62,790 nt of DNA, taken from Rhodanobacter lindaniclasticus. GTDB lineage: Bacteria; Pseudomonadota; Gammaproteobacteria; Xanthomonadales; Rhodanobacteraceae. Of the stretch, positions 44,606-55,673 are shown one piece after another (position 1 is the stretch's first letter; each line of letters starts with the position of its first letter). The notes under the pieces were generated by a model. That model worked only from the letters and a program-made list of their open reading frames with translations. It did no database searches and was not told the DNA's origin. The DNA is taken from the NCBI RefSeq assembly GCF_004799035.1, contig NZ_MWIO01000019.1, forward strand, positions 1 to 62,790. The letters are read 5' to 3'. A program made the position numbers and the translations under genes.

Positions 44606-45085
44606 CCGTCATCCCGGCGAAGGCACAATGCTGTCCGGACAAGTCCACGCCGTACGTCCATGGTGCCCCATTCCCATACTTCCCCCGGCCGTCATTCCCG
44701 CGAAAGCGCACTGCTGTCCGGAATAAATTTGAGGGTCCGTGGTTCCGGGGTTTCGATAACCTTCCCCGTCGTCATTCCTGCGAAGGCCGGAATCGCACTT
44801 GAACGACGAAAGGCGGCGCCACGTCTGGATCGCCCGACCAACGACCTTGGCTGGCCCTATGCTTTGCCGCATGGTCGAAGTGCGATTCCTGCCTTCGCAG
44901 GAATGACGAGCGGGAACAAGTGGATTTTTCGAGTCGGGATGGCCGGTTGCGGGTCGCGCGGCCTTGCGCCGCAATGTCGCCAACGCCAAGTGCCGGTTTA
45001 CTCCGGACAGCAGTGCGCGAAACGGGAATCCATGTTGCGGTGCTCCCGGCGAGCCACAATGGATTCCCGCTCTCGCGGGGATGAT
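44606..45085. repeat. Nested inverted-repeat block in a gene-free 570-base gap
   Basis: Between the receptor and the first toxin gene no coding region is supported. The area holds mirrored repeat units: 44771-44800 pairs with 44878-44907 (30 bases, one mismatch), and 44707-44727 pairs with 44997-45017 (21 bases, one mismatch). All carry variants of GTCATTCCCGCGAAAGC / GCTGTCCGGA. Outer, more degenerate units lie at about 44606-44640 and 45030-45085. Concentric pairing suggests repeated insertion or duplication of a REP-like unit; it could fold into one large cruciform. Confidence 0.8.
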
Positions 45086-45113
45086 GAGCACAGGCTTGAC
45101 CAGAACATCCTCA

Positions 45114-45142
45114 TTGACTGTGTGAAAACCACAGTTTACACT
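45114..45142 (+). promoter_or_regulatory. Promoter/operator of toxin-antitoxin pair 1
   Basis: TTGACT (45114-45119), 17-base spacer, TACACT (45137-45142). An inverted repeat ACTGTG/CACAGT (45117-45122, 45130-45135, 7-base centre) overlaps the -35 and spacer and fits an antitoxin operator. The -10 ends 6 bases before the toxin ATG, so the transcript would start at or next to the ATG, i.e. leaderless or nearly so. Confidence 0.7.
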
Positions 45143-45148
45143 CGGTCC

Positions 45149-45451
45149 ATGTTCGAGCTGGTCAAATCCGCGACCTTCGACACCTGGTTTCGAGGCCTGC
45201 GCGACGTTCGGGCCAGGGCCCGCATCGCGGCGCGACTCGATCGCATGGCCGATGGAAACTTTGGTGATGTCAAACCGGTTGGCCATGGCATCAGTGAATT
45301 GCGGATCGACTACGGACCCGGGTATCGGGTGTATTTCATCCTGCGTGGTTCGATCCTTGTAGTCGTGCTGGCGGGTGGCGACAAGCGTACCCAGCACGCA
45401 GACATCCAGACCGCCCGACGCATGGCATCCGATTGGGAGCGTGAATCATGA
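45149..45451 (+). CDS. RelE/ParE-superfamily toxin (HigB-like, Gp49 type)
   Basis: 100 residues of the DUF891/Gp49-like RelE group: FELVKSATFDTWFRGLRDVR, ARIAARLDRMADGNFGDVKP, GISELRIDYGPGYRVYFILR, VVLAGGDKRTQHADIQTARR. RelE-like members are ribosome-dependent mRNA endonucleases; Arg and Lys residues in RIDYGPGYRVYF and GGDKRTQ are the expected active-site area. The gene order is toxin first, and the stop overlaps the antitoxin start (ATGA). Repressed with its antitoxin at the palindrome upstream (inferred). Confidence 0.9.
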   Translation: MFELVKSATFDTWFRGLRDVRARARIAARLDRMADGNFGDVKPVGHGISELRIDYGPGYRVYFILRGSILVVVLAGGDKRTQHADIQTARRMASDWERES

Positions 45452-45753
45452 AAGGTGTGCGAGAGAATTTTTCCCGTTACGACACAGCCGACTACCTGAA
45501 GACCGAGGCTGACATCGCGGCCTACCTTGAAGCTTGCGCCGAGGAAGCACCCAACGATGCGACCTTCATGCTCAAGGCCTTGGGCACGGTGGCACGTGCG
45601 CGGAACATGAGCCAGTTGGCCGAAGCCACCGGCATGACCCGCGCGGGTCTCTACAAGGCGTTGTCCGGCGAGGGCAACCCGAGTCTGGCCAACACGATGA
45701 AGGTGGCGAAGGCGTTGGGGTATCGGCTGGCTTTGGTGCCGGATCACGATTGA
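45448..45753 (+). CDS. HigA-like addiction module antidote, XRE-type HTH
   Basis: 101 residues. N-terminal YDTADYLKTEADIAAYLEAC probably wraps the toxin; the C-terminal HTH is MSQLAEATGMTRAGLYKALS, EGNPSLANTMKVAKALGYRL, typical of putative addiction module antidote proteins paired with Gp49-like toxins. It neutralises the toxin and binds the operator. Four-base overlap with the toxin gene. Confidence 0.92.
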   Translation: MKGVRENFSRYDTADYLKTEADIAAYLEACAEEAPNDATFMLKALGTVARARNMSQLAEATGMTRAGLYKALSGEGNPSLANTMKVAKALGYRLALVPDHD

Positions 45754-46228: not shown

Positions 46229-46244
46229 GACGAGCGGATTGACC

Positions 46245-46535
46245 ATGAAAACCCTGCCCAACATCCATCCCGGTGAAGTGCTGCTTGAGGAGTTCCTGGT
46301 ACCCATGGGCATCAGTCAGAACGCCTTGGCGCGTGCTGCCGGCGTGCCGCCGCGTCGCATCAACGAGATCGTGCTCGGCAAGCGCGGTGTCACGGCGGAT
46401 ACCGCGGTTCGGCTATCTGCCGCCCTGGGGACGAGCGAGCGATTCTGGCTCGGTCTGCAAGCGGACTTCGATCTGGAGGAAGCGCATCGCGTGCTTGGCA
46501 AGACGATCGAGCAGATCGAGCGCATTGCAGCGTAA
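46245..46535 (+). CDS. higA: HigA-type antitoxin
   Basis: 96 residues. NIHPGEVLLEEFLVPMGISQ is the diagnostic HigA N-terminus; NALARAAGVPPRRINEIVLG and RGVTADTAVRLSAALGTSER form the XRE helix-turn-helix; FWLGLQADFDLEEAHR completes the fold. HigA inhibits HigB and represses the operon. An earlier in-frame start in another frame overlapping higB is not supported. Confidence 0.94.
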   Translation: MKTLPNIHPGEVLLEEFLVPMGISQNALARAAGVPPRRINEIVLGKRGVTADTAVRLSAALGTSERFWLGLQADFDLEEAHRVLGKTIEQIERIAA

Positions 46536-46561: not shown

Positions 46562-46718
46562 GTCATTGGATCGAATGGCACTTACTTTAAGCCAAAACCT
46601 TCACTTCTCGTCATTCCCGCGAAAGCGGGAATCCAGTGCCTTTCAGGTTGCCAAGGGCGCTGGATCCCCGCTTTCGCGGGGATGACGAGCTTAAGTAAGT
46701 GCCATTCGTCATTGGATC
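46562..46718. mobile_element. MITE-like palindromic element with 11-bp direct duplication
   Basis: Terminal inverted repeats GAATGGCACTTACTTTAAGC (46573-46592) and GCTTAAGTAAGTGCCATTC (46689-46707) match apart from one extra T. Exact direct copies of GTCATTGGATC flank them (46562-46572, 46708-46718), looking like a target-site duplication. The interior is a REP hairpin (GTCATTCCCGCGAAAGCGGG and its mirror). No reading frame; mobility would need a transposase acting in trans. An 11-bp duplication is in the range known for IS4-type elements; the parent element is not in the window. Confidence 0.75.
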
Positions 46719-49076: not shown

Positions 49077-49817
49077 TCAGACCATGCCCCCATTGGCGCG
49101 CAGCACCTGGCCGTTGATCCACGCACCATCGGGACCGGTGAGGAAGGCGACCGTCGCCGCAATGTCCTCGGGCGTGCCGAGACGTTCGAGCGGATTCATC
49201 TTCGACATGCGTTCGACCAGTTCCGGCGACTTGCCGTCCAGGAAAAGGGCGGTCGCGGTGGGCCCGGGCGCGACGGCATTGACGGTGATGTTGCGGCCCC
49301 GCAGTTCCTTGGCGAGGATGCCGGTCAGCGTCTCGACGGCAGCCTTCGTGGCGGCATAGACACCGTAGGTTTCGAGCTTGAGCCCGACGACGCTGGTCGA
49401 GAAGTTGACGATCCGGCCACCGTCGCGCAGACGCTTTGCGGCCTGGCGCAACGTGTTGACGGTACCCTTGAGGTTGACGGCGATCTGAGAGTCAATGAAG
49501 GCGTCATCGGCATCGGCCATCGGTGCCAGCCGCATGATGCCGGCGTTGTTGACCAGGACATCGATCCCGCCGAACGCGGCTTCCGTTTCGTCGAACAGCC
49601 GCGCCACCGCCGCTGCATCACTCACATCAGCCTGCGCGGCGAGGGCCGTGCCGCCGGCGGCCTTGATCTTGCCGACGATCTGTTCGGCCTCCCCGGCGCG
49701 CCCCGTGTAGTTCACGACCACCGCGAAGCCGTCCCTCGCCAGGCGCTGGGCGACTGCTGCGCCGATGCCGCGCGAGGCTCCGGTGACGATGGCAACCTTT
49801 CGGGAGATGTTGTTCAT
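49077..49817 (-). CDS. SDR-family oxidoreductase
   Basis: 246 residues, a classical short-chain dehydrogenase: KVAIVTGASRGIGAAVAQRL (TGxxxGIG cofactor site), DVLVNNAGIMRLA (NNAG), Ser in RIVNFSTSVVGLK, and YGVYAATKAAVE (YxxxK). Arg/Tyr after the first strand (VVVNYTGR) suggests NADP(H). Substrate unknown. Divergent from a LysR regulator across 126 bases, a common pairing in which the regulator controls the reductase. Confidence 0.93.
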   Translation of the reverse strand: MNNISRKVAIVTGASRGIGAAVAQRLARDGFAVVVNYTGRAGEAEQIVGKIKAAGGTALAAQADVSDAAAVARLFDETEAAFGGIDVLVNNAGIMRLAPMADADDAFIDSQIAVNLKGTVNTLRQAAKRLRDGGRIVNFSTSVVGLKLETYGVYAATKAAVETLTGILAKELRGRNITVNAVAPGPTATALFLDGKSPELVERMSKMNPLERLGTPEDIAATVAFLTGPDGAWINGQVLRANGGMV

Positions 49818-49943
49818 GGGGAAAACTCCTGTATTCGATCATGGGAACGGGATGGACGGGGGCATTGTCGTCATTCAAAGCGACTGGATAAATGCCTTGA
49901 ATTGGTTTGCAAATTCAATATCCATCAATAATCATCCATTCCC

Positions 49944-50861
49944 ATGGACCACCTCGATGCGCTCCACCTGTTTACGCGGATCGTCGAGCAACGCAGCTTC
50001 GGCCGTGCTGCCGATCAGCTGGACATTCCCCGCGCCACCGCCACCCACGCGATAAAGCAACTGGAAGCGCGGCTCGGCACCCGCTTGCTCGAACGCAGCA
50101 CGCGCCACGTCCGCCCGACGCCGGATGGCGAGGCCTTCTACGAGCGGTGCGTGCATGTATTGAGCGAACTGGACGACGCCGAGGCCTCGCTGCGCCACGC
50201 CGCATCCAACCCGCGCGGCATCCTGCGCGTGGACATGCATGGCACCCATGCGACCGGGATCGTCTTGCCGCGTATCCGCGAGTTTCGCGAGCGCTACCCC
50301 AACATCGACATCGTGATCAGCAGCGAAGACCGCCTGGTCGATCTGGTGCGCGAAGGCATCGACTGCGCCATCCGCGGCGGCACCGTGCGCGACTCGAGCC
50401 TCGTCGCGCGGCGATTGGCCGTCATCCCCGAAGTCACCTGCGCCAGCCCCGACTACCTGGCACGCTTCGGCACGCCGCGACACCCGTCGGAACTTGCCTC
50501 GCATCAGGCCGTGCAGTTCTTCAACTCCAGCGGCGGCCGCGCCTACCCGTTCGAATTCACCATCGACGGCAAATTACGCGAGGTCGAGCTCAAGGGCTGG
50601 CTCACCGTCAATTACGCCGAGAGCTACGTGGTTGCCGCGCGAAACGGCTGCGGCCTGATCCAGCTCCCGCGATACCACGTCGAAGACGACCTCCGCAGCG
50701 GCCACCTGATCGAGGTACTTGCCGACTTCAGCGGACCAGGCTTTCCAATCACCGCGCTCTACCCGCACCGCCGCCAGCTGTCACCACGCGTGCGCATCTT
50801 TCTTGATTGGGTCGGCCAGCTGTACGAAGAAGCCTTCGGACCAACGCAAGCGTCGACCTGA
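49944..50861 (+). CDS. LysR-family transcriptional regulator
   Basis: 305 residues. N-terminal winged HTH MDHLDALHLFTRIVEQRSFG, RAADQLDIPRATATHAIKQL; C-terminal effector domain (GILRVDMHGTHATGIVLPRI onward) of the CrgA/AaeR-like group. Divergent from the SDR gene. The intergenic region contains ATTCAA ... TTGAAT (49873-49878 and 49897-49902), a possible binding site. Confidence 0.93.
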   Translation: MDHLDALHLFTRIVEQRSFGRAADQLDIPRATATHAIKQLEARLGTRLLERSTRHVRPTPDGEAFYERCVHVLSELDDAEASLRHAASNPRGILRVDMHGTHATGIVLPRIREFRERYPNIDIVISSEDRLVDLVREGIDCAIRGGTVRDSSLVARRLAVIPEVTCASPDYLARFGTPRHPSELASHQAVQFFNSSGGRAYPFEFTIDGKLREVELKGWLTVNYAESYVVAARNGCGLIQLPRYHVEDDLRSGHLIEVLADFSGPGFPITALYPHRRQLSPRVRIFLDWVGQLYEEAFGPTQAST

Positions 50862-50954
50862 TGTCGCGGCCTGAAGCAACGTCATCAACTGCGATTGACG
50901 GAGAAACGATGCGTCTTCCCTGGATGCAGGAAGTGCCATTCGCCAGAGGCCAGG

Positions 50955-51025
50955 CTTCTCCGAGAAGCTCCACCAACCGCGCCTCGCACGGCGAGAGATC
51001 ATGCCCGCCGCTGTGAAATCGCGAA
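50955..51025 (-). pseudogene. Remnant of a LysR regulator 3' end
   Basis: Read on the minus strand this stretch gives GHDLSPCEARLVELLGE, close to the last residues of the LysR gene at 53,228 (GHDLSACEGRLVELLGKG). At DNA level it aligns with 53234-53305 in the same orientation, with six mismatches and one 2-base gap over about 65 bases by eye; the gap shifts the frame. No upstream part of the gene remains. The rest of the gap 50,862-51,275 contains no other gene I can support. With the intact copy it forms direct repeats around the OLD-family gene. Confidence 0.75.
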
Positions 51026-51275
51026 AAGGGCCAGCTCACTCCGACCCTTTGGCTATGTCCGCGTAACAGACAGCATGCGATGCAGGTTCTTGCTGGGCGC
51101 TTGGAGGCCGAGCCGGAACCGCGACATCCCGCGCCTGCCCCGAATCCGACGTCCCATTAATCCCGTCCCCATTAATCCGAAATGAGCATTTCTGTTGCTA
51201 CGCCAGTTGCTCCAAGGCATCATCGAACAGCAATCGGCTTGGCTGTTGGACAGACGCTCAGGGGGGAGCGACCAC

Positions 51276-53102
51276 ATGCGCTTGGAAGCAGTCAGCATCA
51301 CTAACTTCCGATGCTACGATGAAGAAGTTCGGATCGAACTGGGCGACCTGACCACCTTTGTCGGTCGCAACGACATCGGCAAATCGGCCATCCTAGAAAC
51401 CTTGGAAATCTTCTTCAACGGGGACTTGGTCTCCATGGAGCAAGGGGACGCGAGCGTCCACAACGCCGACAAAACCGTCTCCATCACCTGCGAATTCTCG
51501 GAGCTCCCATCCACGCTGACACTGGATGCGGGAGCCGAAACTACGCTGGCCGACGAATATTTGTTGGCCCAGGACGGGCGGCTAAAGATCCGGAAGACCT
51601 TCGATTGCACGAGCAAGAAGCCGTCCGCAGAAGTCTTGGTCATCGCCAATCATCCCACTGCGGACGACTGCGCCAACCTGTTGGAGCTCAAGGAGAAAGA
51701 CCTTCAGAAGCGCGTGAAAGATCTCGGGCTGGACGTCGCCCTGAAGGGCAACCCCGGGATGCGACGGGCGATCTGGGCGGCCGCCGGCGACCTGCGACTC
51801 CGAGAGGTCGCTATTCCCGTGGGTAAGCCCAAGGAAGATGTGAAGCGGATATGGGAGCAGATCGAGCCGCACCTACCCATGTTCGCGCTGTTCCAAAGTG
51901 ATCGGAGTAGCAGGGATTCCGATGACGAGGTGCAAAGCCCCATGAAGGCCGCCGTAGCTGCGGCGATCGCGGAGGTTCAGGAGGACATTGCACGCATCCA
52001 AGCCAAGGTGCGTGAGAAGGCGGAGGAGATTGCGCAGAATACGCACGCCGCGCTGGCCACGATCGACCCGAACCTTGCCAGTGAACTGACGCCCGAGTTC
52101 AGCCCGCCCACCGCGGCCAAATGGCAGGGCCTGTTCTCCCTTGGCTTGAACACCGATGACGGTATCCCCCTGAATAAGCGGGGTAGTGGCGTGCGGCGAC
52201 TGGTCTTGGTGAGTTTCTTCAAGGCCGAGGCGGAGCGTCGCCTCAAGACCAGCGCCAAGCGCAGCATCATCTACGCCATCGAGGAACCGGAAACTGCGCA
52301 GCATCCGAACAACCAACGCATCCTCATCGACTCGTTCAAGGCGTTGTCAGATGACCCAGGATGCCAAGTGATCCTGACCACCCATAGCCCTGGTTTCGCC
52401 TCCTCGCTGCCCCAGGACAGCATCCGCTACATTTCGCGCCATGCCGAAACCAGAAAACCCCACATCCAATCTGGGGTCGATGTGTTTGGCCAAGTTGCAG
52501 AGGCGCTCGGTGTGACTCCGGACAGCCGCGTTCAAGTCTTGGTGTGCGTTGAGGGACCTACCGACGTTTTGGCGTTGAAGGCCCTAGCCAGTGCACTGCA
52601 CCAAGCTGACGCAACGCTGCCGAATATCGCAGCTGACGAGCGCGTGGCTTTCATAGTTCTCGGCGGTGGAACGCTAGAGCATTGGGTCAATCAGCATTAC
52701 TTGCGAGGCCTCAACAAACGTGAGGTGCACATTTATGACCGTGACGTACCTGGTTATGCGGAGTCTGCAAGGCGGGTCAATGAGCGGCAAGATGGCTCTT
52801 GGGCGGTTATCACCGCCAAACACGAGATTGAGAGTTACCTGCACAAGGACGCGATTTCGATGGCGTTTGGCTTTGATATTGAGGTCACCGACCACCCAGT
52901 GGAGGGCAAAGCAACACCCAAGATCTTTGGCGAAGCGTTCGCAGCCCACACCGGCCATGGCAAGCCTCTCAAAGACTCCAATGCGAAAAGAAAGCTTGCT
53001 CAGCAAGCCTTCCCTTGCATGACAGCGGAAATGCTGGCTGAGCGCGATCCGGACGGAGAGGTTCGCGGCTGGCTCCGCCGCTTAGGCGAAATGCTGAACT
53101 GA
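51276..53102 (+). CDS. OLD-family ATPase with TOPRIM nuclease domain
   Basis: 608 residues. N-terminal ABC/SMC-like ATPase: MRLEAVSITNFRCYDEEVRI, Walker A GRNDIGKSAILETLE, signature-like KRGSGVRRLVLVSFF, Walker B IIYAIEEPETAQHP and switch His in VILTTHSPGFAS. C-terminal TOPRIM: VLVCVEGPTDVLALKAL (metal-binding Glu) and VHIYDRDVPGYAES (DxD). OLD nucleases, named after phage P2 Old, act in antiphage defence alone (class 1) or with a UvrD-like helicase as in Gabija; no helicase gene is adjacent, so it looks solitary. Base composition is visibly less GC-rich than the surroundings, implying transfer. GGGGGAG precedes the ATG. Confidence 0.93.
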   Translation: MRLEAVSITNFRCYDEEVRIELGDLTTFVGRNDIGKSAILETLEIFFNGDLVSMEQGDASVHNADKTVSITCEFSELPSTLTLDAGAETTLADEYLLAQDGRLKIRKTFDCTSKKPSAEVLVIANHPTADDCANLLELKEKDLQKRVKDLGLDVALKGNPGMRRAIWAAAGDLRLREVAIPVGKPKEDVKRIWEQIEPHLPMFALFQSDRSSRDSDDEVQSPMKAAVAAAIAEVQEDIARIQAKVREKAEEIAQNTHAALATIDPNLASELTPEFSPPTAAKWQGLFSLGLNTDDGIPLNKRGSGVRRLVLVSFFKAEAERRLKTSAKRSIIYAIEEPETAQHPNNQRILIDSFKALSDDPGCQVILTTHSPGFASSLPQDSIRYISRHAETRKPHIQSGVDVFGQVAEALGVTPDSRVQVLVCVEGPTDVLALKALASALHQADATLPNIAADERVAFIVLGGGTLEHWVNQHYLRGLNKREVHIYDRDVPGYAESARRVNERQDGSWAVITAKHEIESYLHKDAISMAFGFDIEVTDHPVEGKATPKIFGEAFAAHTGHGKPLKDSNAKRKLAQQAFPCMTAEMLAERDPDGEVRGWLRRLGEMLN

Positions 53103-53227
53103 ACTAAAGGGGACGTGACCAATATGCATGACCCCAGGCACTCAGCCCACGGAGGACATGTAAGCGTTCCCCTGCGGACGTTCGCCCATGCGCGACAACC
53201 ACACAGACAACTACGCTTCGCTCGAAG

Positions 53228-54118
53228 CTAGCCCTTCCCGAGCAGCTCCACCAACCGCCCCTCGCACGCCGACAGATCATGCCCCCGCCGCTGTGAAACC
53301 ACGAACGTCAGCGAGCGAATGTGCCACGCACGCCGCTCAAGCTCGACAAGCTGCCCACCGGCCAGATCCTCGACCACGAGATGCCGCGGCAAGTGCCCCC
53401 ACCCCAGCCCGGCTTTCAGCAGATCGCGTTTCGCACCGAGATCATTGACCAGCCACTGGCGCTTGCCGGCGACGCCCTGCTGGGTCTTTTCCGCGCCGGG
53501 CTGGTTGTCGGTGACGACGATCTGGGGGTGGCGGCCGAACTCGTCCGCGGGGATGGGCTTGGGGGTCGAGGCGAGCGGATGGTTCGGCGCGCAGGCGGTC
53601 ACCATCTCCTCCTCGCGCAGCCAGTGGCGTTCGATCGCCTGCGGGTTCACTTCCGGCACGTCGTTGATGGTGACGGCCAGCGCGCACACTTTTTCCAGCA
53701 CCAGCTTTTCGCCGCCCTGCATGGTGGTGATGCGCAGGTTGATCGCGGCGGTGGGGCATTCTTCCTGCAGCGTGCGCAGGCAGTCGATCAGGTGGGCGCG
53801 CGGAAAATAGGCATCGACCGCCACCGACACCTGCGGCACGCCGGCCTTGGCGATCGCGCCGGCGCGGTTCTTCATTTCCTCCGTACGCGAGATCACCGCC
53901 CGTGCGTCGGGCAAGAGGCTGCGCCCCGCCGCGGTGAGCTGCGCCTTGCGCGTGTTGCGCTCGAACAGCTCGACGTCGAACGCGCTTTCCAGCGCCTTGA
54001 TCGCGTGGCTGATGGCCGACTGCGCCCGTGCGAGCTTGCGCGCCGCGCCCGAGAAGCTGCCCTGGTCGCACACCGCCACGAACGCCCGCAGCTGGTTGAT
54101 GGTGACGTTGTCGAGCAT
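53228..54118 (-). CDS. LysR-family transcriptional regulator
   Basis: 296 residues. HTH: MLDNVTINQLRAFVAVCDQG, SGAARKLARAQSAISHAIKA; effector domain starts at PQVSVAVDAYFPRAHLIDCL. The last ~20 residues match the remnant at 50,955. It is divergent from the NAD(P)-binding oxidoreductase across 127 bases; in that gap ATCGTATCAAGCGAT (54137-54151) has the T-N11-A shape of LysR boxes, and TCAAGCGA recurs at 54175-54182. Confidence 0.93.
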   Translation of the reverse strand: MLDNVTINQLRAFVAVCDQGSFSGAARKLARAQSAISHAIKALESAFDVELFERNTRKAQLTAAGRSLLPDARAVISRTEEMKNRAGAIAKAGVPQVSVAVDAYFPRAHLIDCLRTLQEECPTAAINLRITTMQGGEKLVLEKVCALAVTINDVPEVNPQAIERHWLREEEMVTACAPNHPLASTPKPIPADEFGRHPQIVVTDNQPGAEKTQQGVAGKRQWLVNDLGAKRDLLKAGLGWGHLPRHLVVEDLAGGQLVELERRAWHIRSLTFVVSQRRGHDLSACEGRLVELLGKG

Positions 54119-54245
54119 CAGTTATCCAGAAAATAGATCGTATCAAGCGATGTTTCGTCAATTGGATTGATGCGTCAAGCGACCCAGATTGGTTGGGCAC
54201 CGGCTCGAACGGGCCGGATCACTCCACTCAAGAAGGATCATCCCC

Positions 54246-54836
54246 ATGAGCTACGCCATCATCGGTTTCGGTTCCATCGGCCAGGCCCTCGCCCGCGCTT
54301 TCGCCCGCAACAACATCGAAGTCACGGTCGCCAGTCGGCGGCCGCCCGAGGCCCTGTTGCCGCAGGCGCAGGCGATCGGCCCCAGGGTCATCCCCGGGAC
54401 ATTGCAGGAAGCGGTCCAGGCGGACGTGATCATCCTGGCGGTGCTGTTCGAGGGGCACCGTGACATCGGCAAGCTGCTTGCGGACTGGAAGGGCAAGACG
54501 ATCATCGACGCGATGAACACGAATGACCCGGTCGAAACGCTCGACAACCTCCCTTCCTCCGCCTTCGCCGCCAGGTCGTTCCCGGGCGCCAGGTTCGTGA
54601 AGGGCTTCAATCACCTGCTGGCGCGCACGCTGGCCTCCGACCCCAGGGTCCAGGGCGGCCACCGGGTCGTGTTCCTGTCCAGCGACGACGAAGCGGCCAC
54701 GGCGCAAGTGGCGGACCTTGCGAAGCGACTCGGCTTCGCCCCCGTCAACCTCGGCAAGTTCGACGAGGGCGGCAGCCTGGTGCAGGCACGCGGCCGCGCG
54801 TGGGGCCCGCTGATTTTCCAGGACCTGTTCAAGTAG
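54246..54836 (+). CDS. NADPH-dependent F420 reductase-like oxidoreductase
   Basis: 196 residues. SYAIIGFGSIGQALARAFAR is a GxGxxG Rossmann start and VTVASRRPPEA supplies basic residues for NADPH phosphate; KTIIDAMNTNDPVETL and GARFVKGFNHLLARTL follow the F420-dependent NADP reductase/NADP-oxidoreductase family. Since F420 is not general in gammaproteobacteria, the true electron partner is unclear. AAGGA precedes the ATG. With the SDR gene downstream it forms a LysR-controlled pair. Confidence 0.85.
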   Translation: MSYAIIGFGSIGQALARAFARNNIEVTVASRRPPEALLPQAQAIGPRVIPGTLQEAVQADVIILAVLFEGHRDIGKLLADWKGKTIIDAMNTNDPVETLDNLPSSAFAARSFPGARFVKGFNHLLARTLASDPRVQGGHRVVFLSSDDEAATAQVADLAKRLGFAPVNLGKFDEGGSLVQARGRAWGPLIFQDLFK

Positions 54837-54938
54837 CAGCCGTGAGCGCGTACGGCCATCACGACAAGGACCGCGATCGGCGCGCCATCCACATCACTGC
54901 TTCGGCAGTTGCAACCCCTCCAATCCAGGATTCATGAC

Positions 54939-55673
54939 ATGAGCAAGTTGAATGGAAAGACCGCCGTCATCACCGGCGGCGCCACCGGCATCGGCCTCGC
55001 AGCGGCAGAGCGCTTCATCGAGGAAGGCGCCTTCGTCTTCATCTACGGCCGTCGGCAGGAAGCGCTCGACGCCGCGCTGGCAAAGCTCGGCCCCAACGCC
55101 CGCGCGGTACAGGGCTCGGTCTCCGACCCGGCCGACCTCGACCGGCTCTACGCGGCGGTGAAGGCCGAACGCGGAACCCTCGACATCGTGTTCGCCAACG
55201 CCGGGACGGGCGGCCTGCTTCCGCTCGGCCAGATCACCGCCGAGCACATCGACGAAACCTTCGATACCAACGTGAAGGGCGCGATCTTCACGGTGCAGAA
55301 GGCGCTGCCGCTGATGGGCCCGGGTGGCTCGATCATCCTGACCGGATCGAGCGCGGGCACCACCGGCGCCCCGGCCTTCGGCGTCTACAGCGCGAGCAAG
55401 GCCGCCGTGCGCAACCTCGCCAAGACCTTTGCGGAGGACCTGAAGGGCACCGGCATCCGGGTCAACGTGCTGTCGCCGGGACCGACCGCGACCGAACTGG
55501 CGAAGGCCGCGGTGGGCGAGGAAGGCCTGAAGGCGTTCGCCTCGATGAACCCGCTGCAGCGCATGGCCGAGCCGGCGGAGATCGGGGCGGCGGCAGCCTT
55601 TCTGGCGTCACCGGACAGCAGCTTCATGACCGCCAGCGAGCTTGCCGTCGATGGTGGGCTGGCGCAGATCTGA
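54939..55673 (+). CDS. SDR-family oxidoreductase
   Basis: 244 residues. KTAVITGGATGIGLAAAERF (cofactor site), DIVFANAGTGGLLPLGQ (NAG), SIILTGSSAGTTGAPAFGVY with YSASKAAVRNL (Ser-Tyr-Lys). IYGRRQEALD after the second strand suggests NADP(H). Similar in layout to the SDR at 49,077 but on the opposite side of the OLD gene. Probably cotranscribed with the upstream oxidoreductase (102-base gap). Substrate unknown. Confidence 0.93.
   Translation: MSKLNGKTAVITGGATGIGLAAAERFIEEGAFVFIYGRRQEALDAALAKLGPNARAVQGSVSDPADLDRLYAAVKAERGTLDIVFANAGTGGLLPLGQITAEHIDETFDTNVKGAIFTVQKALPLMGPGGSIILTGSSAGTTGAPAFGVYSASKAAVRNLAKTFAEDLKGTGIRVNVLSPGPTATELAKAAVGEEGLKAFASMNPLQRMAEPAEIGAAAAFLASPDSSFMTASELAVDGGLAQI

Follow-up and report, generated by a model that had tools for sequence, protein, structure and literature searches.

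A foreign-looking stand-alone OLD nuclease gene of the Class 1 type in a variable gene pocket beside a LysR gene of Rhodanobacter lindaniclasticus

The closest described systems to the gene studied here are the Class 1 OLD nucleases (P2 Old, Thermus scotoductus OLD or TsOLD [6P74] and E. coli YbjD/OldB), the Class 2 OLD nuclease GajA of Gabija, and the AriA/AriB pair of PARIS. One anti-phage example among Class 1 OLD proteins is named in a review, and further ones are given in a later paper (PMC10568477, PMC13261556). We analyzed a stretch of 62,790 nucleotides from Rhodanobacter lindaniclasticus (contig NZ_MWIO01000019.1, positions 1 to 62,790 of the forward strand, hereafter the window), in which a single OLD gene lies 3′ of a LysR gene that we call LysR1. 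We describe its anatomy, its codon bias, its rarity in relatives, the variable pocket in which it sits, near-empty sites in related genomes and other candidate defense genes found there. Taken together, we consider it likely that a foreign-looking stand-alone gene of the Class 1 kind, with a predicted anti-phage role, was captured into a pocket of gene turnover 3′ of LysR1, and that a direct repeat of the LysR1 end next to it is debris of earlier events.

The core defense hotspots of Pseudomonas aeruginosa are said to consist of fixed neighbor genes with changing defense genes between them, and the pocket beside LysR1 resembles them in this respect, but it is only a candidate hotspot, known from few genomes and with mixed metabolic cargo and no integrase seen. 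The borders of the OLD gene carry motifs like those of RAYT/REPIN elements, whose termini are usually viewed as selfish extragenic repeats. As in RAYT transposases with their REP/REPIN sequences, some transposase-like genes in these genomes have inverted motifs at their ends; a role in moving defense cargo is something that we propose here.

A stand-alone OLD gene with a foreign signature

The gene and its leader are as follows.
51276..53102, + strand: OLD gene, 608 amino acids, with an ABC/AAA_15 ATPase (residues 1-375) and a C-terminal TOPRIM-like domain (AAA_15 profile, alignment and structure model)
51194..51275, + strand: conserved leader with a ribosome-binding site, common to homologs (seven-sequence alignment with indels)

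The reading frame is open for 635 amino acids from TTG 51195, but the most likely start on sequence comparison is ATG 51276, since the same ATG and a preceding GGGGAG-type ribosome site are common to five close homologs. The leader of about 80 nucleotides is probably non-coding, as its nucleotides are conserved but with indels. Nucleotide similarity to the homolog loci L051-L055 has its left limit between 51194 and 51235 and its right limit at the stop codon or at most 21 nucleotides before it, suggesting that the unit common to the genera is the leader plus the gene. An Rfam search over 50850-53300 gave no match, and a scan for sigma-70 promoters and terminators found none.

The AAA_15 profile covers residues 1-375 (E 2.1e-78). 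We aligned the window protein with 41 homologs, 35-88% identical and chosen from 80 loci, and found the residues of an N-terminal ABC ATPase invariant in all 42 sequences (G30, K36 and S37 of Walker A, E336-E337 of Walker B, and H370 of the H-loop), along with the acidic residues of a C-terminal TOPRIM domain (E426 and D430 in EGxxD, D488 and D490 in DxD, and E519). The Pfam OLD-like_TOPRIM match scores 13.9 bits, under the cut-off of 23.2, and none of the Pfam TOPRIM models reaches its own threshold. A structure model of the protein (pLDDT 83, pTM 0.57) was compared with solved structures using Foldseek, which ranks GajA and Thermus OLD first (best match GajA 8x5i_D, E 9.1e-18). Among the 50 matches listed (VIA-align), only OLD nucleases, namely GajA, Thermus OLD and retron Eco8 OLD, align end to end (from residue 1-2 to 606-608), and the SMC, Rad50 and PtuA-type heads that fill many of the rows match the ATPase only. 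The full-length matches have large root-mean-square deviations, 12-15, so they speak for the domain composition but not for the detailed shape.

GajA has the same fold, but in contrast to Gabija no GajB-like UvrD-type helicase gene adjoins the OLD gene, whose neighbors are LysR genes. The sequence-only reading of this DNA had described a solitary class-1-type OLD gene with no helicase or integrase, and this description stands: no helicase, reverse transcriptase or integrase gene adjoins it among the window genes. The 80 homolog loci also agree with a single gene, as they show no conserved operon partner, the largest neighbor family (with open reading frames [ORFs] inside the OLD gene set aside) being present at 5 of 80; by eye, on contigs many of which are short, that family resembles type I methylase genes.

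The PADLOC models matched are Old, GajA and the AriA-type ATPase, and the first of them is AriA (E 6.4e-65, residues 1-374). The protein could therefore be a fused PARIS-type system with the AriA ATPase and the AriB TOPRIM domain in one chain, instead of a Class 1 OLD. We regard this as very improbable, as the AriA model spans the ATPase only and, among chains of solved structure, those of AriA reach no better than E 0.23, much weaker than TsOLD (5.8e-11) or GajA (2.1e-6). With E values up to 10 allowed, neither the C-terminal part nor the complete protein has a listed match to DUF4435 (AriB-type), although the HMMER filters, which were on, drop most weak matches. In contrast to PARIS, the TOPRIM domain is in the same chain and there is no second gene.

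By its anatomy, the window gene is a stand-alone Class 1-type OLD nuclease, about 16-19% identical to 6P74, and by analogy with its relatives it is predicted to act against phages. Unlike the known Class 1 proteins, it belongs to a set of relatives spread across many phyla, and the available parts of the OLD-nuclease literature mention no tested member of its branch.

The gene has a GC content of 58.5% against 67.5% for the window, confirming the lower GC read from the letters, and when codon usage was computed its GC at third codon positions (0.708) and its codon adaptation index (0.437, the next being 0.549) were both the lowest among 20 window genes compared. The same reading had named presence of the gene in all relatives as evidence against it; what we found, besides the outlying codon usage, is that homologs at E 1e-30 occur in 2 of 233 genomes of the family, its own included, the other being a genome of another genus whose protein shares 44% identity, limited to residues 2-393. 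The nearest protein is 92% identical, and the named relatives at 84-90% include Pseudomonas, Stenotrophomonas and Xanthomonas; an 85% identical homolog is on a Pseudomonas syringae plasmid. Relatives at about 36% identity are common on enterobacterial plasmids, and matches were found in 562 plasmid records but only two phage records, both partial and below 40% identity. At E 1e-10, 6071 of 8000 scored candidates are relatives, a count that takes in distant ones. Codon bias, rarity in the family and close relatives in other genera and on a plasmid give the gene a foreign look. On a Salmonella plasmid (L172, NC_021819.1), a 36% identical OLD-like gene is found near a Tn7-like tnsD gene.

The pocket beside LysR1 and its cargo

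The right wall of the pocket and the genes next to the OLD gene are the following, with G numbers denoting genomes.
53228..54118, − strand: intact LysR1, right wall of the pocket (Pfam HTH_1 and LysR_substrate; orthologs in the family)
53160..53227, no strand: native downstream flank of LysR1 (75-78% identity to G006, G021 and G020)
49077..50861, both strands: SDR2 (−) and LysR2 (+), neighboring cargo (a similar pair lies near LysR1 in G003)

A LysR1 ortholog at E 1e-120 is present in 28 of the 233 family genomes, with one match each, and 19 of these belong to the genus of the window. The best named matches of the LysR are to Rhodanobacter and Frateuria. In eight genomes (G000, G001, G002, G006, G008, G021, G028 and G032), the region 3′ of LysR1 holds parC or the small gene following it. 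The space in between comprises 13.6 kb in the window and, as other genes, about 11 kb in G008 and about 4.4 kb in G002, and it shrinks to a gap of about 260-470 nucleotides between the small gene and LysR1 in five genomes (G001, G028, G006, G021 and G032). Conserved walls, a variable interior and near-empty sites are thus found across these eight genomes.

To look for defense cargo, we scanned with PADLOC the ORFs of at least 180 amino acids that lie up to 6 kb from the LysR1 stop, which gave 89 ORFs in 10 loci of the genus and 58 ORFs in nine loci outside it, including two shorter than 2 kb. The scan left out G001, G006, G021 and G028, where the first 6 kb are parC and its neighbors, and G032, G040, G041 and G042, which have less than 1 kb past LysR. 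Three loci have convincing cargo: a 758-amino-acid nSTAND3 protein in G005 (PDC-S73, E 6e-27), an 875-amino-acid PDC-S06 protein (E 5e-274) with a HipA_2/DUF3037 pair (PDC-M66A/B) in G016, and an AbiU/AIPR protein in G138 (E 2e-134). Less convincing are an HNH protein 3.5 kb away in G181 (E 1e-22) and a 2OG-type match in G195 (E 2e-22). Matches to mad2 (found in the control too), a TAP-like protein, 2OG, PbeA and a patatin/TIR cross-match were discounted. The control consisted of flanks of LysR paralogs, of which 20 were fetched, with the start estimated from partial LysR matches, and 12 were scanned (115 ORFs); the eight omitted were two set aside for size and six that by eye appeared to be copies of one neighborhood. 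No match at E 1e-20 was found in these 12 control loci.

Several results weigh against a pocket that specifically collects defense genes. At E 1e-20, matches occur at 5 of 19 LysR1 loci and at none of the 12 control loci (one-sided Fisher 0.07), or at 3 of 19 and none of 12 when only the convincing loci are counted (0.22), and at E 1e-10 the control does have matches to three models (mad2 and two PDC-M08B) in two or three proteins. Most pocket cargo looks metabolic by eye. The gaps of G001 and G028 retain a piece of a histidine kinase gene, suggesting that these two may be deletions instead of never-filled sites. The neighbors of LysR1 differ between genomes outside the parC set, and part of the variation is movement of a LysR1 cassette and not of the cargo. 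LysR1, patchy in its presence, reaches 93% identity from one genus to another and 88% in metagenome-assembled genomes of Burkholderiaceae; together with the differing neighbors, such identity makes the cassette itself (53228-55673) seem transferred. The excess of defense genes over the control is therefore suggestive but not significant. The hotspot put forward in the sequence-only reading has gained varied cargo with candidate defense genes and near-empty sites in relatives, but not a significant enrichment.

Other features of the pocket were also observed. The window pocket has toxin-antitoxin-like genes, namely a Gp49/DUF891 gene with a HI1420-type antidote (45068-45753) and an HTH_3 gene (46239-46535). 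At 46572-46710 there is a dispersed repeat of about 140 nucleotides with 17 matches in its own genome and matches in 41 of 45 genomes of the genus, and the repeat also occurs just downstream of LysR1 in G002 and G012. Beside LysR1 in G137 (L181, 9552-11941) we found an NA37 nucleoid-associated gene and a 452-amino-acid ORF with no Pfam match at E 1e-5.

The repeated LysR1 end

Between SDR2-LysR2 and the OLD gene lie three gene scraps, one of which repeats the end of LysR1.
50939..51027, − strand: frameshifted 3′-end fragment of a LysR1-type gene (repeat alignment and tail alignment)
51066..51111, − strand: fragment of an addiction-module antidote-like gene, reading LGLQAPSKNLHRMLS (81-89% matches in G008, G018, G036 and G013; family named by eye)
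51119..51144, + strand: 26-nucleotide fragment of an epoxide-hydrolase-like gene (100% match to an ORF in G008 and G003; named by eye)
53217..53305, − strand: intact right copy of the direct repeat (repeat alignment)

The direct repeat proposed by the sequence-only reading, with a frameshifted left copy and an intact right copy, is real: 50939-51025 and 53217-53305 are in the same orientation and 82% identical over 89 columns (86.9 bits), and the match is also found ungapped (68 nucleotides at 82%). It spans approximately the last 76 nucleotides of the LysR1 gene and 11 nucleotides past its stop; the left copy lacks two nucleotides of a C run and has an altered stop codon, so it is not a working gene end. 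The repeat exceeds chance, as the best match among 100 swapped pairs of 2-kb flanks reached 29 bits, although 5 of 99 same-locus control pairs reached at least 40 bits.

The same reading took the duplicated end as a record of integration. In such a scenario, an OLD-bearing element entered the last 76 nucleotides of LysR1 by site-specific integration, restored the gene and displaced the old end leftward, which agrees with the correct orientation and placement of the repeat and with a foreign-looking single gene between its copies. Had an element entered within the gene end, the native flank would be expected beside the remnant, but in an alignment of all tails it is the 65 nucleotides past the intact LysR1 stop that are 75-78% identical to G006, G021 and G020, and past the remnant no relative exceeds 50% identity. 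Compared locally with G003, the remnant does keep matching for about 30 nucleotides beyond the gene end (77% with gaps), so that some native left flank is possible and some doubt is left. No integrase was found among the genes called at 44.6-54.2 kb, whose names are partly by eye. A second LysR tail was found at none of the 25 other LysR1 loci, leaving the window as the only one of 26 tested (22 have at least 3.8 kb of sequence, and the four with less than 2 kb are weak tests). Flanking direct repeats are not typical of OLD-family genes either, with 3 of 50 loci against the 5 of 99 same-locus controls, the 50 being drawn from the 80 homolog loci with some others of enough flank omitted. We consider integration improbable. 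On these counts we rejected both the tail duplication as a joint of the hotspot and the idea that OLD-family genes generally have flanking direct repeats. Among individual homologs, a Desulfobulbus gene (L105) is flanked by 91% identical direct repeats of about 92 nucleotides on each side, and L071 and L120 have weaker flanking repeats.

The duplicated LysR1 end is probably not an integration scar but debris of earlier turnover, given that the native flank stays with the intact copy, that the duplication does not recur at the 25 other loci and that the remnant lies among fragments of two other genes. The source of the 26-nucleotide hydrolase scrap is an open ORF of about 390-400 amino acids in G008 and G003; the G008 copy belongs to the same pocket, at a distance of 3.1-4.3 kb downstream of LysR1, and the G003 copy adjoins SDR2 and LysR2. 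By eye, a truncated LuxR-like scrap is also present in the G016 pocket.

One possible origin of this debris, which we put forward tentatively, is a second LysR1 cassette or detoxification cluster, in the order epoxide hydrolase-SDR2-LysR2-...-LysR1 as in G003, that was joined by homologous recombination and decayed to a LysR1 tail and a hydrolase scrap, with the OLD gene arriving later and independently. All these genes are found within 8 kb in G003, and LysR1 has a patchy distribution with 93% identity across genera. Besides its own LysR1 (82%), the remnant has matches in G042 (84%) and in a genome from a different genus, G137 (85% over 68 nucleotides). However, a remnant of 76 nucleotides is too short to be placed in a tree, the window SDR2-LysR2 pair is only 77% identical to that of G003, and the antidote-like scrap in between is left unexplained. 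Such a decayed cassette is compatible with capture of the OLD gene into a pocket of gene turnover.

RAYT-type termini and the arrival of the OLD gene

The borders of the OLD gene and its leader carry two motifs.
51149..51178, − strand: left RAYT-type (B) terminus, double and diverged, GATTAATGGGGACG, 16 nucleotides before the leader (match to an array in G008)
53103..53125, + strand: right RAYT-type (B) terminus, TAAAGGGGACGTG, inverted relative to the left one and starting at the OLD stop codon (B pattern at 53106, with one mismatch)

The left terminus is 90% identical over 31 nucleotides to a tandem array in G008, and the right B motif is 4 nucleotides past the OLD stop. The core CGTCCCCWTTAA has two copies in its own genome, one at the OLD locus and one beside a RAYT-like scrap. 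RAYT-like ORFs were found in 7 of 12 genomes, including that of the window; these transposase-like genes are called RAYT-like from the motifs of their protein, which has no sequence match in the PDB. In G013 one RAYT-like gene is bracketed by an A motif and another by the B motif, and in the genome of the window a third motif brackets one. We counted 38 copies of the A motif GTGTCAGGGACAATT, spread over 7 of 10 genomes, and none of its reversed control.

Similar motifs are found at the borders of other cargo. G005, G016 and G012 are 93-100% identical between the LysR1 stop and the far border of an A motif at -188, and beyond it similarity falls to chance level; a short hairpin with RAYT-like ends and no gene adjoins LysR1 in all three. 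A terminus motif lies 12 nucleotides past the stop of the G016 pair and 96 nucleotides past that of the G005 gene. Motifs at most 120 nucleotides past a stop were found at 4 of 235 gene ends, the OLD gene probably being one of the four, and at 3 of 4 defense cargo units. Within 300 nucleotides of the LysR1 stop there are 10 motifs in 7.8 kb, compared with 20 in 223 kb further out (1.28 and 0.09 per kb), the near matches coming from 6 of 26 loci, three of them of one clade. In Stenotrophomonas ginsengisoli, a third RAYT-type motif is found 36 nucleotides past the stop of an OLD homolog (L054, 7863).

These borders led us to the idea that RAYT/REPIN termini are exchange joints at which single-operon defense genes (OLD, STAND, PDC-S06/HipA-like and perhaps others) are swapped beside one LysR, making an integrase-free hotspot. 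We hold this to be a doubtful proposal, with much that speaks against it. The left terminus fits the B pattern only at four mismatches and is not found at three, and the B core TTAAAGGGGACG has 9 matches in 3 of 10 genomes compared with 4 for the reversed control. Of the 13 RAYT-like matches, only three have the same motif on both sides; one is mixed, five have a motif on one side and four have none. The termini around the OLD gene are oriented outward, opposite to those around a RAYT gene, which indicates that the OLD gene is not inside one RAYT element. No terminus is present at the border of the AbiU gene in G138. The terminus motifs were chosen after being seen, and the excess near LysR1 would shrink if compared with intergenic DNA only, such repeats being intergenic. 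In a limited literature search, no link between RAYT/REPIN and defense hotspots was found among the matches listed.

Plain horizontal transfer of the gene into neutral intergenic space would call for neither joints nor a defense hotspot, the termini being ordinary extragenic repeats that favor gene ends. The mostly metabolic-looking neighbors, the non-significant control comparison, the abundance of extragenic repeats in the genus and the few RAYT-like matches with the same motif on both sides fit this view. Less easily accommodated are the contrast between gene ends and defense cargo units, even with motifs picked afterwards, the exact three-way breakpoint at a terminus and the different candidate defense genes in G005, G016 and G138, and we consider plain transfer somewhat unlikely. 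Capture of the OLD gene into a pocket of gene turnover remains the explanation that we prefer.

Judging from the borders, the cargo would enter and leave by recombination or transposition at the flanking RAYT/REPIN-like termini. By analogy with its relatives, the OLD protein may form an oligomer that is dormant until infection, when its ATPase would sense a signal of infection, for P2 Old the loss of RecBC, and release the TOPRIM nuclease onto DNA or tRNA, which could stop phage growth, perhaps by harming the host. P2 Old senses RecBC loss and is cited as cleaving a tRNA (PMC13261556), and Thermus OLD is described as a 5′ to 3′ exonuclease (PMC10568477). The nuclease step is the least certain part of this mechanism, since the TOPRIM domain of YbjD was dispensable for its anti-phage phenotype (PMC13261556).

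Solitary defense genes can sit on chromosomes without an integrase, and how they arrive there is an open question that this locus addresses. It offers an answer that can be tested, with breakpoints at RAYT-type termini and relatives that have different cargo or hardly any, and it draws attention to a family of Class 1-type OLD proteins that is widespread.

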